Shown here piece by piece: positions 17,538-24,069 of a stretch of 42,542 bases of DNA. A program made the position numbers and the translations under genes. Source of the DNA: Bacilli bacterium (GTDB taxonomy: Bacteria > Bacillota_I > Bacilli_A > RFN20 > CAG-826); contig JAKSVI010000010.1 in assembly GCA_024408095.1 (NCBI GenBank), positions 1 to 42,542 of the forward strand, given 5' to 3'. The number at the start of each line of letters is the position of its first letter. Within the stretch, counting starts at the first letter, position 1. The notes under the pieces are model-generated. The model saw nothing but the letters and a program-made list of their open reading frames with translations, searched no databases and was not told the DNA's origin.

Positions 17538-17558
17538 AAAAACGCGCATAGTGCGCGT
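17538..17558 (-). terminator. Intrinsic terminator upstream of tig
   Basis: Minus strand: ACGCGCA, a CTA loop, TGCGCGT, then TTTTTATTG. This GC-rich stem in an AT-rich genome ends transcription of the TPR-like gene. Confidence 0.85.
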
Positions 17559-18552: not shown

Positions 18553-19542
18553 TTATGACAATTTGGCGACTTTTTCTTTCTTCTTTTTTATACGTTTTGG
18601 TTTGCCTAATAACCTCACTTGCATATTGTGGCTTGTAAATAATAAATTGATGACTATAAGCCCACCAATAAAGCCTACTAATGCAACCCAGTCGAAGGCA
18701 GGGGAAACTTTAATTGTATTGCAAAATACAACATCCCAAGAGAAATTCTGCTGCACTGCTTCAATTATTGACTGAGCTTTATCTGGATAATAGGTATTTA
18801 GTATTGATGTTACATTGTTATATTGACTTGTTAAAAAATCATTTCTTAATAATGCAACACTATACGTTCCTGGAAGAAAACCAGAAACTGCTGACAATTC
18901 GTGAAGCATATTGAGTGGCATGTAAGTTCCAATAACAAATCCAGCACCTGCTGAGAAAATAGCAATTAATGAATTAAACGAATCATTATTTGAGAAGAAG
19001 TTAATGATAAAGAATGTTAAAAGTGAAGAAACAATAATTGAAACAATTATTGTCGCCAAAGTTAACAAGAAATCAATTATGCTTGTTAAAACAAAAACTT
19101 TAAAGCACGCTAATATAATTAACGACAAGAAATAAACAAGCATTGTAATTATAAATGTAACAAGGAAATTAAAAATTAAATAACTAGTTATTAAGGTTCT
19201 ATTTTTAATTGGAGAGGATGCAAAATCTTTTACAACACCTTGTTCCCTGTCTTTTAAAACAACATAGCAAGTATTTAAACTAACAGTTATACAAGTTAAT
19301 CCAATAATACCTGAAAGCATCCAAGCATCAACCAATCCAAAGGCTGCTGTCTTTAAAACCTCATTAGGATCGCTTATTTCTTTTTGAATCGCACTTAATA
19401 CTGAACTTTGTTCAAGATTACGTAAAAAGATGTAATAAATAGCAATGGAGCAAACCGGAACCATTAAAGCAAAAAAGAAATTTGTTTGGGTTTTGAAGAA
19501 ACATTTAAAATGTCTTTTAACTAATGCGAATAAACTAGTCAT
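18553..19542 (-). CDS. ABC-2 type transporter permease
   Basis: A six-helix ABC-2 permease (329 aa). An amphipathic N-terminus (LVKRHFKCFFKTQ) is followed by a first helix (about 22-40), a large extracytoplasmic loop, four helices in the middle (about 95-215) and a last helix near 285-305, with a lysine-rich tail. I start at the ATG at 19542, which has GAGGAGG 9 nt upstream, rather than a TTG six codons earlier. It overlaps the end of the ATPase fusion gene by 8 nt, so the two are clearly partners. Confidence 0.88.
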   Translation of the reverse strand: MTSLFALVKRHFKCFFKTQTNFFFALMVPVCSIAIYYIFLRNLEQSSVLSAIQKEISDPNEVLKTAAFGLVDAWMLSGIIGLTCITVSLNTCYVVLKDREQGVVKDFASSPIKNRTLITSYLIFNFLVTFIITMLVYFLSLIILACFKVFVLTSIIDFLLTLATIIVSIIVSSLLTFFIINFFSNNDSFNSLIAIFSAGAGFVIGTYMPLNMLHELSAVSGFLPGTYSVALLRNDFLTSQYNNVTSILNTYYPDKAQSIIEAVQQNFSWDVVFCNTIKVSPAFDWVALVGFIGGLIVINLLFTSHNMQVRLLGKPKRIKKKKEKVAKLS

Positions 19543-21289
19543 TTTCTTGTTCCTCCTCAATTTTATCTGCGCTACGGCCTGTTACATTAAGGAAAACATC
19601 ATCCATGTCGCCTTTTTTCACTTCAAAATCTTTTATATCCTTGCGATTTTTCTCGATGAAATCAGCGGCTTCATTTGTTGTTTTAAAAGCCACATGATAA
19701 CTCAAAGAATCTTGATGATAAGTGTACTTTTGATTCTTAAGTACTTCATTCATATGATCACTTTCTGAAGCGTAAATGATGACATAATTTTGAGAATATT
19801 TATTTTTAAGTTCTGTTGGAGTGCCAGTGGCAATAATGTTTCCGTGGTCCATAATAACTACATCGCTCGCTTGATCTGCTTCTTCAAGATAATGAGTAGT
19901 TAAAAAGACAGACATATTTTTTTCTTTTCTAATATTGTCTATTAGATTCCATACATCCTTCCTTGTTTTTGGATCTAGTCCAGTTGTTGGTTCATCTAAT
20001 ATTAATAATTCTGGGGAATGGAGCATGCTTCTTGCAATATCAACACGTCTTCTTTGACCTCCAGATAATCTCCCAACTCTTCGCTTCAAAATAGCTTTTA
20101 AGTCTAAAATATCAATCAATTCTTGTATTTTTTGTTCTCTTTCTTCTTTGGTAGAAGGATAAAACGCCGCTCTGGTTCTCAAATTATCGATAACAGTTAA
20201 ATCGCCATCAAGAACACTATTTTGAAAAACAATACCGATTCTTTTTTTGACTTCAGCACGTGATGTGTCTAAATCCAAGCCATCAACAGTAACTTGACCT
20301 TGATCCTTGCTTAGAATAGAGGCAATTATATTAATTGTTGTTGATTTACCAGCACCATTAACTCCTAAGAAAGCAAATAGACTACCGCGTTTAACTTTAA
20401 ATGAAATATCATTTACAGCTTTAACATCACCGTATTGTTTAATTAAATGATCAACAGTTAAAATATCAGGGTTCATCTCATCTTTTGCTTTTTTATAAAT
20501 ATCATAGTCATCATCAAAATCAAAGATTTTTAATCTTGAATGAACTGCGTTTATATCCCACTGTTTTATATTGTAAACATGGAAAAATGGCCTCCATTTA
20601 ATGCCCTGACAAAAATGTTTGACAACAGTATTTGGTTTAATGTCTCGTTGTTCGTTAAAACGGAATTCATCAGGAAAATATTTTAAATATTTAACAGATT
20701 TATTTAATGCACTTTGATCAACAAAATATAAATGTTTTGTTCTAATTAGGTTTATTACCTTCTCAAGGAGTTTTGTTTCCCTCATCTTGTCTAAATTCAT
20801 GAGCAAAACGCCACTATTAAAATATTTTGGATTAATCCAAAATTTGCCTAAATAATCTCTACATGCAGCAAGTTCATAGTCTTTTACATCAATATCGTAA
20901 AGTTCTTTAATGTCGCCTGTAGCCATTGTGTCAACATCTAGATAAATAACTTTTCCTTTAAAATCAGGAATTTTATCAATTAATAATCTCAATAAAGCAT
21001 AAGGAGTATAAGAAGCTTTTTCGTTTTTATTTCCTAATAATGTTGATTTATATAAATCATCACATCTATATAACTTAGCGTGACATTTATTTGATATTGA
21101 ATTAACAGTTTTATCAATAACATTAATTTGTTCTTCGCTTATTGGGACAAATGCTTTATTAAGATGAGAAACATCCATAGTTAAAACATTGAATGTTACC
21201 TCTTCTTTAGTTCTTTTTGCGACTGAAATGGCGGACAGCAATATTCCATCAAATGTTCGTTTGTTTCCTGCATAAATGATGTTGATCAT
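19535..21289 (-). CDS. Fusion: family-8 glycosyltransferase + ABC transporter ATPase
   Basis: One 584-residue reading frame holds two complete domains. Residues 1-270 are a GT8-like glycosyltransferase: N-terminal INIIYAGNK, donor-metal motif LDVDT (117-121), FNSGVLLMNL (157-166) and a late KHFCQGIKW (224-232). Residues 272-584 are a DrrA-type ATPase: Walker A GVNGAGKST (309-317), LSGGQ (408-412), LLILDEP (428-434), switch His466 and the usual C-terminal extension. Met272 (20474-20476) looks like the native start of a free ATPase, but no stop codon separates the halves. AGGA precedes the first ATG. The adjoining ABC-2 permease completes an exporter. Confidence 0.9.
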   Translation of the reverse strand: MINIIYAGNKRTFDGILLSAISVAKRTKEEVTFNVLTMDVSHLNKAFVPISEEQINVIDKTVNSISNKCHAKLYRCDDLYKSTLLGNKNEKASYTPYALLRLLIDKIPDFKGKVIYLDVDTMATGDIKELYDIDVKDYELAACRDYLGKFWINPKYFNSGVLLMNLDKMRETKLLEKVINLIRTKHLYFVDQSALNKSVKYLKYFPDEFRFNEQRDIKPNTVVKHFCQGIKWRPFFHVYNIKQWDINAVHSRLKIFDFDDDYDIYKKAKDEMNPDILTVDHLIKQYGDVKAVNDISFKVKRGSLFAFLGVNGAGKSTTINIIASILSKDQGQVTVDGLDLDTSRAEVKKRIGIVFQNSVLDGDLTVIDNLRTRAAFYPSTKEEREQKIQELIDILDLKAILKRRVGRLSGGQRRRVDIARSMLHSPELLILDEPTTGLDPKTRKDVWNLIDNIRKEKNMSVFLTTHYLEEADQASDVVIMDHGNIIATGTPTELKNKYSQNYVIIYASESDHMNEVLKNQKYTYHQDSLSYHVAFKTTNEAADFIEKNRKDIKDFEVKKGDMDDVFLNVTGRSADKIEEEQEND

Positions 21290-21297
21290 AGAATTTC

Positions 21298-21483
21298 CTA
21301 CTTTTTTGTGATTTTAACTTTTGTTTTACAATGTGGACAGATTATATATGCTCCGATTATTTTATCTTCACATATTTCTTTTTTGGTTTCTTTATCAATG
21401 TGACAATCACGTTTAAAATCTAAAGTAATGTCAGAATAAGAATATGTGACTTTTGTTTTACAACTGGGGCATATTATTTCCAT
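21298..21483 (-). CDS. Small zinc-ribbon protein
   Basis: A 61-residue cytoplasmic protein with two CxxC knuckles, CPSCKTKV (5-12) and CPHCKTKV (49-56), so probably one four-cysteine zinc site; CHIDKETKKEIC in between holds two further cysteines. Its stop lies 8 nt before the glycosyltransferase-ABC start and forms part of that gene's ribosome-binding site, which makes it the first gene of the exporter operon. An extended -10 box ends only 9 nt before the ATG and there is no Shine-Dalgarno. Confidence 0.75.
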   Translation of the reverse strand: MEIICPSCKTKVTYSYSDITLDFKRDCHIDKETKKEICEDKIIGAYIICPHCKTKVKITKK

Positions 21484-21543: not shown

Positions 21544-21569
21544 CAAAAAAGCAACCCTTTCGGATTGCT
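21544..21569 (-). terminator. Intrinsic terminator after lemA
   Basis: Minus strand: AGCAATCC, a GAAA tetraloop, GGGTTGCT, then TTTTTTGT: an 8-bp stem with a stable loop. It ends the lemA operon and isolates it from the exporter operon. Confidence 0.92.
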
Positions 21570-21591: not shown

Positions 21592-22242
21592 TTAGAAGAA
21601 TGTTCCTCTGGCTTGTTGTTTTGTCTCGGCAGAAACTGAGAATGGAATACGTGTTGTATATCCACGCTTTGCAGCAACAATCATTTTTGCAGGCCACTCA
21701 AAGATGGCTTGGTTCCATTGAGCAACACTATCGTTATAAACTTCTCTAGCAGCAGTAATTTCTTTTTGCAAATATGAATTTTGTTGCATAGCGTCAGCGA
21801 TTTGGTCATGGGCTTTTAAATTTGGATAATTTTCTAAAGCAACATTAACGGCTTTTGTTATGTTTTCAACACCTTGAGCAGCACTATTTAAGTCATTGTT
21901 GCTGCGGAATTTTGCAATATCAGTGAATGTTGATTTATCTAAATCAATAGCCTTATCCAATAATTTTGCACAGTTTTGAAGAATAACAACTCTTTGTTCT
22001 AAATAGTTGTCGATTTGTGAAGCATCGTGTTGAATTCTTTGTTGCAATTTACTTAAATAATTGCCAGCATTAATTTTTACGAATAAAAATATTAAACCTG
22101 GAATAATTCCTAGTACCCAAAGAATAACTTGGAAAACAGTACTTCCGGGACCAACTTTTGGAGCAATTTGTTTTTCAATTACATTAATATCTCGTCCTTC
22201 TTTATTGACTGGACCAGTCATTTCGTCTAATTCGTTTGCCAT
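21592..22242 (-). CDS. lemA: LemA family protein
   Basis: A membrane-anchored, coiled-coil protein of unknown function (216 aa). One membrane segment (about 36-56) is followed by long helices and the family's NYPNLKAHDQ and ARxxYNDSVxxWN blocks (here ENYPNLKAHDQ and AREVYNDSVAQWN). AAGGAGG precedes the ATG by about 7 nt, and the upstream membrane-protein gene ends 12 nt before it, so they form a two-gene operon. Confidence 0.92.
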   Translation of the reverse strand: MANELDEMTGPVNKEGRDINVIEKQIAPKVGPGSTVFQVILWVLGIIPGLIFLFVKINAGNYLSKLQQRIQHDASQIDNYLEQRVVILQNCAKLLDKAIDLDKSTFTDIAKFRSNNDLNSAAQGVENITKAVNVALENYPNLKAHDQIADAMQQNSYLQKEITAAREVYNDSVAQWNQAIFEWPAKMIVAAKRGYTTRIPFSVSAETKQQARGTFF

Positions 22243-22254
22243 ATATTTTCCTCC

Positions 22255-24069
22255 TTATTTTGTGGCGTTAAGACTTTTAATAAATGAATCTAATGCGCTA
22301 TCTGTTCCATTTGGAACATAAGAGACGAATCTCTTATTAAAAAGTATATCATTTTCACTACTAATTGTGTTAGAAATATTATTATATTTATTCATTGAAC
22401 AATTAACGTTTTGAACAACAAATGGGGTAATTTTGTCAGCTTTTTGATAGTCAATCCAATGAACGGGAACATCGTAAAATTTGCCATCTCCAGCCATTAC
22501 TTTTACGTAAGCAATACGATCTGTACCAGTGAAAGAATATGAATGAATGTTAACCAAATCACCTTCATTTATTTTGTTCACAAATTCACTTTTTAAAATA
22601 ATATTAGTGATTGTATTGTCAGGTCTAAATTTGTCTCGATTGTGGCGATTTGCAGAGCTTTCGACCTCAAATGAGGTGATATTTTCTTTATATAAACCCT
22701 TATGGATGTACTCACTCGTTTTGGTTTGTTGATATAAAGGAATGCTCATTAGAGGTGCAAAATCAAAATATAAACTTTTTAAATATGTGTCACAATAATC
22801 AATAAAAGATTTTTTGCTATCATCAAATGAGAAATTAATGAATTTATTCGGATCTCCTCTATACAAACCTTCTACTTGAGAGTGTGCGCTGGCAATGTAG
22901 TTTAAACATTTATTTTTTCTAAAAGAAAAATCATCACCATATGGTTGTTTATTTCTTATTAAATTAACAATATTTTTTTGCGCTAATGGAGTAAATAGTA
23001 GTCTAAATTCTACGTTATTATCTCTATCAAGAGCTCCAAAAAGAGCTTCAAATTCTGGATTTTGCAATCTAACAAATCCTTTGTCGATATTTTTTTGAGC
23101 ATATTTATCTAAGGATTTATCTTGTTTTTTCACGTAATCATCAATTTTATTTTCGTTCATTGAATTTGCAGGAGATGGATGACGTGAAAAGTTCAAATTA
23201 GGTGCAGCTTCATTGCCATATAATAATGTTGTACTAACATAATAATTTGGTTCTGGAGCAGTATATTTACCGACTAAGACCTGAGACACGTTGGTTGTTT
23301 TCCAAGAACCATCAACATAGACTTTTTTACTATAAGTAACAGTTCTAGTACCAGTATAAACATGGTCTATCATATTTTGACAATAATTTTCCATAATAAG
23401 GAATGGATTTCCCAATATGCTGCCTGATTGAACAAATAAGCTTGAATTGCAGTCGCTATGGTCTTCATCAAAGCCAAATTTAGCTTTCAAATATTCAAAC
23501 TTGCTTGGATCAAAAATCTCATCCATTTGAAATAACGGTATTGTTTCATTCAAAAGTTTTGCTGGCATTCCCCAATCAAACAAACTATTAAGCGGGGCCA
23601 TTTGAGTATAGCCTTCAGCCATGGCAGCTTCTTTCTTTTTGATCACTTCATCAATGCGTTGGTTTAATTGTTTAATGTCTTTACTAACTTTCAAAATTAT
23701 TAAAAATAATAAACAAATGCTTAGGAAAATAGCTCCAGCTCCTATTCCTATCATTAAACCAACATTTGGTACTTTTTTAAGAATACCCATTACTAAGCAA
23801 ACGACTCCAGCAATTCCAAAAATAATAGCAAAAGCAATTAAAAATCCTTTAAATACTTTTGTTGATTTCGCCTTCTTTCCAAGTTTGGTTTCTTCGTCTA
23901 AATATTTTTTGTATTTTTTAACAGTCAATCTGTTAGCTTCAACATCAACATTTGCTTGCTTGTTCAATGTCTCAAAAAATTCATCAGCATTATCATGAAA
24001 TGCATCTTTTAGACGGTCATTGTAGAGTTTTGTTGGCTCTAGTAAATCTAAATTACTAACTTTTTGCAT
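22255..24069 (-). CDS. Large membrane protein, partner of LemA (unknown function)
   Basis: A 604-residue protein with a cytoplasmic helical N-terminus (1-70), two adjacent membrane spans (about 74-96 and 103-127), a coiled-coil stretch (128-150) and a long soluble C-terminal domain of mixed composition. I recognise no catalytic motif. It resembles, in layout only, the large two-span proteins found beside lemA in other Firmicutes. It has no Shine-Dalgarno; a TACAAT box lies 6 nt before the ATG and the previous gene's terminator is only about 40 nt upstream, so the mRNA is probably leaderless. Confidence 0.8.
   Translation of the reverse strand: MQKVSNLDLLEPTKLYNDRLKDAFHDNADEFFETLNKQANVDVEANRLTVKKYKKYLDEETKLGKKAKSTKVFKGFLIAFAIIFGIAGVVCLVMGILKKVPNVGLMIGIGAGAIFLSICLLFLIILKVSKDIKQLNQRIDEVIKKKEAAMAEGYTQMAPLNSLFDWGMPAKLLNETIPLFQMDEIFDPSKFEYLKAKFGFDEDHSDCNSSLFVQSGSILGNPFLIMENYCQNMIDHVYTGTRTVTYSKKVYVDGSWKTTNVSQVLVGKYTAPEPNYYVSTTLLYGNEAAPNLNFSRHPSPANSMNENKIDDYVKKQDKSLDKYAQKNIDKGFVRLQNPEFEALFGALDRDNNVEFRLLFTPLAQKNIVNLIRNKQPYGDDFSFRKNKCLNYIASAHSQVEGLYRGDPNKFINFSFDDSKKSFIDYCDTYLKSLYFDFAPLMSIPLYQQTKTSEYIHKGLYKENITSFEVESSANRHNRDKFRPDNTITNIILKSEFVNKINEGDLVNIHSYSFTGTDRIAYVKVMAGDGKFYDVPVHWIDYQKADKITPFVVQNVNCSMNKYNNISNTISSENDILFNKRFVSYVPNGTDSALDSFIKSLNATK

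Follow-up and report, generated by a model that had tools for sequence, protein, structure and literature searches.

Can a glycosyltransferase and the motor of an ABC exporter be carried on a single polypeptide, and what would such a protein be for? The question is raised by a minus-strand gene in the window, by which we mean the whole 42,542-nucleotide stretch of DNA analysed, from a Bacilli bacterium of the family CAG-826. It was originally predicted that a glycosyltransferase family 8 (GT8) domain and a complete DrrA-type ATPase share one uninterrupted frame here, so that sugar transfer is physically tied to export. The ORF reading confirmed an open frame of 584 amino acids without interruption, in which both domains were recognised by Pfam (Table 1).

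Table 1. Coordinates of the fusion gene, its domains and motifs, and the adjacent genes in the window.
Feature	Position	Strand	Basis or conservation
ABC-2 permease, 329 aa from ATG 19542	18553..19542	-	PF01061, E 2.6e-9; longest ORF 18553-19560
GT8-ABC fusion gene, 584 aa	19535..21289	-	Start ATG 21289; open frame, Pfam domains, 16 homologous fusions elsewhere
GT8 domain, residues 3-198	20696..21283	-	PF01501 Glyco_transf_8, E 1.5e-20
DxD metal motif D118-V-D120 (in LDVDT)	20930..20938	-	Both Asp invariant, 17/17 fusions
YFNSG block, GT8 active site, residues 156-160	20810..20824	-	Kept as YFN[SA]G in 14/17 fusions; also kept in most of the wider GT8 set
D191-Q192, GT8 active site	20714..20719	-	Kept in 14/17 fusions
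K224-H225-F226	20612..20620	-	Invariant, 17/17 fusions
Helical linker, residues 259-275	20465..20515	-	AlphaFold2 helix 259-272, first strand of the nucleotide-binding domain from 275
Met272, proposed relict or internal start	20474..20476	-	No Shine-Dalgarno match above background; not generally conserved
ABC ATPase domain, residues 292-436	19982..20416	-	PF00005 ABC_tran, E 1.7e-35
Walker A GVNGAGKST, residues 309-317	20339..20365	-	Invariant in 17 fusions except position 310
ABC signature LSGGQ, residues 408-412	20054..20068	-	Invariant in 17 fusions
Walker B LLILDEP, residues 428-434	19988..20008	-	Conserved in 17 fusions
DrrA1-3-type C-terminal domain, residues 489-569	19583..19825	-	PF13732, E 3.7e-6
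61-aa ORF, two CPxC zinc-ribbon pairs	21298..21483	-	Directly upstream of the fusion

The N-terminal part belongs to GT8, with a PF01501 score of 74.3 bits against the curated Pfam cut-off of 24.3. The fold reaches approximately residue 255, beyond the end of the Pfam match at residue 198, and phmmer matched the domain to 3tzt and, with E-values from 1e-4 to 1e-10, to GlyE (5gvv), WbbM (6u4b) and LgtC. The LDVDT motif and the FNSGVLLMNL block (from residue 157) were present as predicted, and D118, D120, N158, D191, Q192 and H225 are all in place; by analogy with LgtC, H225 could be the third metal ligand. An AlphaFold2 model built from 38 aligned sequences had a mean pLDDT of 88, an earlier model from 8 sequences having been poor (pLDDT 72). 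As most of residues 1-230 were modelled with a pLDDT of about 95, the GT8 domain can fairly be called complete.

The C-terminal part carries the Walker A, LSGGQ and Walker B motifs of a DrrA-type ATPase, and both PF00005 and PF13732 scored over their cut-offs, the latter only just (28.0 bits against 27.4). When the whole fusion chain was submitted to Foldseek, the ATPase domain dominated and ATPases alone were found among the best 50 matches. The solved structure nearest to the ATPase domain was 4yer (39% identity), followed by ABCA lipid exporters. In NCBIfam, the ATPase fell outside the drrA drug subfamily (TIGR01188, 280.1 bits against 312.45) and far from the NodI cut-offs (177 bits against 521, and 165 against 424). 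Its C-terminus is of the DrrA1-3_C type, and no Wzt family was among the matches listed.

An ABC-2 permease gene adjoins the fusion on the same strand, as it does 3' of the fusion in the relatives examined. The overlap between the two genes, part of the original prediction, is likely to be 8 nt (ATGACTAG), with the permease starting at ATG 19542; AGGAGG lies at 19552-19557, 9 nt before this codon. The 26-nt overlap given by the longest ORF, which begins with TTG, was set aside because ATG 19542 carries the good Shine-Dalgarno sequence. The small zinc-ribbon ORF is probably cotranscribed with the fusion, and terminator-like sites at 21550-21569 and 17542-17558 flank a unit of zinc-ribbon ORF, fusion, permease and a 302-aa protein. 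Upstream of this unit (22255-24069 and 21592-22242, minus strand) are a LemA-family gene and a 604-aa membrane protein with weak DUF3137/DUF2207 matches. The neighbouring genes of the window were also considered as pathway partners and rejected, since Lon, trigger factor, ValS, rubrerythrin and LemA are housekeeping or unrelated proteins (identified partly by eye).

The joining of two adjacent genes by a sequencing or assembly error, or by a recent loss of a stop codon, would give the same picture, and a separate tandem arrangement of the two genes does occur in one genome (L113). Against this, a search of 224 genomes of family CAG-826, with one locus (L053) added as the seventeenth from its translation, found the fusion as a single open frame in 17 genomes of six genera: the window (g1), G100 (g7), G032, G095 and G096 (g33), eight g26 genomes, G181 (g9), and G230, G238 and G239 (g24). 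The 16 fusions from the five further genera were 41-74% identical to that of the window, and their stop-free frames rule out a missed stop or frameshift at the junction; an artefact can therefore be practically dismissed. The same range of identity across six genera also rules out a recent origin, which had been suspected. Candidatus Fiminaster equi, to which G100 corresponds (L104), is placed in the same GTDB family as the window, CAG-826, in the order RFN20 (PMC8957277), and its 74% identity to the window extends over the domain junction. The relatives thus keep the fusion rather than always having two genes, and L113 was the only genome found in which the GT8 and ABC genes are adjacent and separate. 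Among 279 genomes from the order, and in samples of 395 from the class and 392 from the phylum that also include family members, no fusion was found outside family CAG-826.

It had also been proposed that Met272, in the linker, is a relict or internal start which could yield two products. Among well-aligned sequences this methionine was shared only with the closest relative (L038), and its Shine-Dalgarno match of 3 of 6 is the commonest value for internal ATGs of the fusion ORF, so neither a relict nor an internal start is credible. The length of the linker itself differs among relatives in the alignment. Three fusions of genus g24 (L050, L051 and L053) retain the DxD and KHF motifs but no longer have NSG and DQ; Pfam scored their GT8 domains at 35 bits, at 20 bits (under the cut-off) and not at all. 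These GT8 domains have perhaps altered their specificity or lost catalysis; GT8 activity may therefore not be universal among the fusions.

In an ABC tree of 50 rows, the fused ATPases fall within a supported clade of 28 (96/84). This clade holds 17 GT8-fused members, one fused to a membrane GT2 and 10 that are unfused, and all 10 unfused ABCs have a same-strand glycosyltransferase gene beside the ABC or its permease. Of the 22 ABCs outside the clade, a single one shares its operon with a glycosyltransferase gene; the clade counts are not independent, as its members share ancestry. A GT2 gene lies directly upstream of the ABC in G129, G090, G092, G008, G184 and G506 (gaps of +3 to -20 nt) and two genes downstream of it in G182, G183 and G132, whereas L113 has a tandem GT8-ABC-permease array with the GT8 4 nt upstream of the ABC. 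Several of these glycosyltransferase genes overlap their neighbour by 4-20 nt. G128 (L080:7694-9967) is an independent glycosyltransferase-ABC fusion, in which a membrane GT2 is joined to an ATPase of the same clade in a protein of 757 aa, followed by a permease. The different arrangements (fused, upstream, downstream) imply several separate linkings, and by this comparison a coupling of glycosyltransferase and exporter in this ABC clade is well supported. The idea that sugar transfer is tied to export is therefore strengthened by the fusions in six genera, by the GT2 fusion and by the glycosyltransferase in every unfused operon of the clade.

The fusion and its ALTERNATIVES could be followed in genus g9, where a locus of Pot-type importer, ABC, permease and GT2 is common to G181, G182 and G183. 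The ABCs of these three are 72% identical, and GT8 is fused in G181 only. The GT8 tree placed G181 near the window and g33, whereas the ABC tree placed it with G182 and G183, and forced agreement was rejected (AU p 0.006 and 0.0096). Given the long GT8 branch of G181, it can only tentatively be read as a case of domain exchange or of a second fusion event. A single clade for all GT8 fusions was likewise rejected (AU p 0.00014 in the ABC tree and 0.0038 in the GT8 tree). Repeated gain or loss of GT8 is therefore indicated, and the tree tests fit a single gain followed by losses as well as they fit several gains. Such a change would naturally start from, or end in, the gene order seen in L113. 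No ABC remnant was found beside the unfused GT8 genes of G112 and L107.

The nature of the cargo is suggested by the company that GT8 relatives keep. Unfused relatives (30-49% identity) were found in Clostridia, Lachnospira, Levilactobacillus, Ligilactobacillus, Treponema, Aeriscardovia and Saccharibacteria, most of them in a PlsC-GT8-GT8'-PlsC' cassette to which an AMP-ligase and ACP are sometimes added. The Fiminaster fusion has an AMP-ligase-ACP gene two genes upstream and a PlsC gene three genes upstream. On a contig other than that of the fusion, the window's genome carries a pair of membrane GT2 and PlsC genes (G000:C24, L222), and on a third contig an AMP-ligase/AMP-ligase-ACP/PlsC/ACP operon (G000:C6, L224); both may provide the lipid side of the pathway. 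Because the GT8 relatives, Fiminaster and the window's genome all carry acyltransferase contexts, glycosylation of an acyl lipid is favoured. The cargo had been foreseen as a glycolipid, a glycopeptide or a short glycan; the acyltransferase cassette favours a glycolipid or acylated glycan and makes a glycopeptide less attractive. The cassette itself is conserved in L110-L144 (Lachnospiraceae, lactobacilli, Treponema, Aeriscardovia and Saccharibacteria), no published description of it was found, and it is probably an undescribed glycolipid pathway.

We consider the best explanation, and a reasonably probable one, to be that GT8 makes a glycolipid-like product and is anchored to the exporter by which this product is flipped or exported. 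Catalysis, transport direction, acceptor and exact substrate are all predictions of this model, in which the gene would encode a two-domain enzyme-motor associated with the membrane. The N-terminal domain would move a sugar from a nucleotide sugar onto a lipid-type acceptor at the cytoplasmic face, and the C-terminal ATPase would dimerise on the ABC-2 permease encoded by the overlapping downstream gene, the two driving a glycolipid or a short acylated or lipid-linked glycan outward across the membrane. Through the covalent tether, each ATPase would hold one GT8 and each transporter two, and synthesis would take place right where the product enters the pump. The presence of ABCA lipid exporters among the solved transporters nearest to the ATPase by sequence is consistent with this. 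DrrA-type ATPases serve drugs and peptides as well, which counts against a glycolipid, as does the housekeeping character of the window's neighbours, where no acyltransferase or sugar-nucleotide gene is adjacent to the fusion.

The tether could instead serve dosage and membrane recruitment only, both parts belonging to a shared surface-glycan pathway in which the sugar is put on a molecule other than the cargo. GT2 and GT8 are interchangeable and their order varies (upstream, downstream or fused), and G112 and L107 keep a close GT8 relative without a matching ABC beside it, as such a loose association would allow. However, the linkage holds for 28 of 28 members of the ABC clade and two glycosyltransferase families are fused to it, which suggests a tighter link, and we regard this explanation as unlikely. 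It is improbable that GT8 has no catalytic role and serves the ATPase as a sugar-binding or gating module, comparable to the C-terminal carbohydrate-binding domain of some Wzt proteins. This would suit the three g24 fusions that have lost NSG and DQ and have weak or absent Pfam GT8 scores, but all 17 fusions retain the metal ligands, 14 of them, among these the window's, retain every motif, and the unfused glycosyltransferase neighbours in the clade resemble ordinary enzymes.

We think it quite improbable that GT8 glycosylates a peptide or a toxic small molecule ahead of its export, in the manner of DrrAB or glycopeptide systems: no precursor peptide or biosynthetic genes were seen beside the fusions and the GT8 relatives go with acyltransferases, even though drrA was the best NCBIfam match (280 bits, under the 312 cut-off) and related ABC-permease pairs in family f5 precede TldD/TldE-like peptide-processing genes. 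In f5 (L086, L202-L206), two TldD/PmbA-like metalloprotease genes, identified by eye rather than by profile, immediately follow these ABC-permease pairs, a hint that the lineage may export a peptide. As these related pairs lie outside the clade, the transporter family as a whole is not restricted to glycolipids.

The components of the tethered exporter are known families, and it is their arrangement within ABC-2 glycoconjugate export that appears to be new. DrrA/DrrB-type exporters, including NodI/NodJ, and ABCA-related ATPases likewise combine an ATPase with a DrrA1-3 C-terminus and a separate ABC-2 permease, to which the window fusion adds approximately 270 N-terminal residues that form the GT8 enzyme. 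Wzm/Wzt systems are ABC-2 exporters of lipid-linked glycans with glycosyltransferases encoded alongside; these are separate proteins, and the extra domain, if there is one, is a C-terminal glycan-binding domain. In the window, by contrast, the glycosyltransferase sits N-terminally on the ATPase itself. An example of a Wzm/Wzt-type glycan export cluster has been described (PMC4483657). LgtC (1ga8/1g9r), GlyE (5gvv) and the GT8 domain of WbbM (6u4b) share the family and the metal motif with the window GT8 but stand alone or are linked to further glycosyltransferase domains, not to an ATPase. The PlsC-GT8-GT8'-PlsC' cassette, in which the first GT8 is related to that of the window but unfused, has acyltransferases and two GT8 genes and, unlike the window, no fused DrrA-type ABC. 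No description of a GT8-ABC fusion was found in the open full-text papers searched, where absence is not proof.

Arguments about how a glycoconjugate passes to an ABC exporter usually have to rely on separate proteins; with enzyme and motor on one chain, a single gene pair makes the hand-over directly testable. The fusion has apparently been assembled or taken apart more than once, because two glycosyltransferase families are involved and the domain trees of G181 conflict. Family CAG-826 of RFN20 was predicted to be peptidoglycan-deficient, with standard wall and lipoteichoic acid synthesis predicted absent (PMC10868615), and the window's genome (83% complete) gave a single weak match to the Mur-ligase family and none to a transpeptidase. 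As the family is predicted to be wall-less, surface glycolipids would be a main part of its outer face. A more far-reaching and rather doubtful possibility is that these proteins are one-polypeptide synthase-motors of wall-less Bacilli, in which transfer and ATP-driven flipping are mechanically coupled, GT8 and membrane GT2 can be swapped, and the main surface glycolipid coat that replaces the wall is produced. The fusion and its permease point to a pathway that may make surface glycolipids in these gut Bacilli, which are uncultured and apparently lack peptidoglycan.
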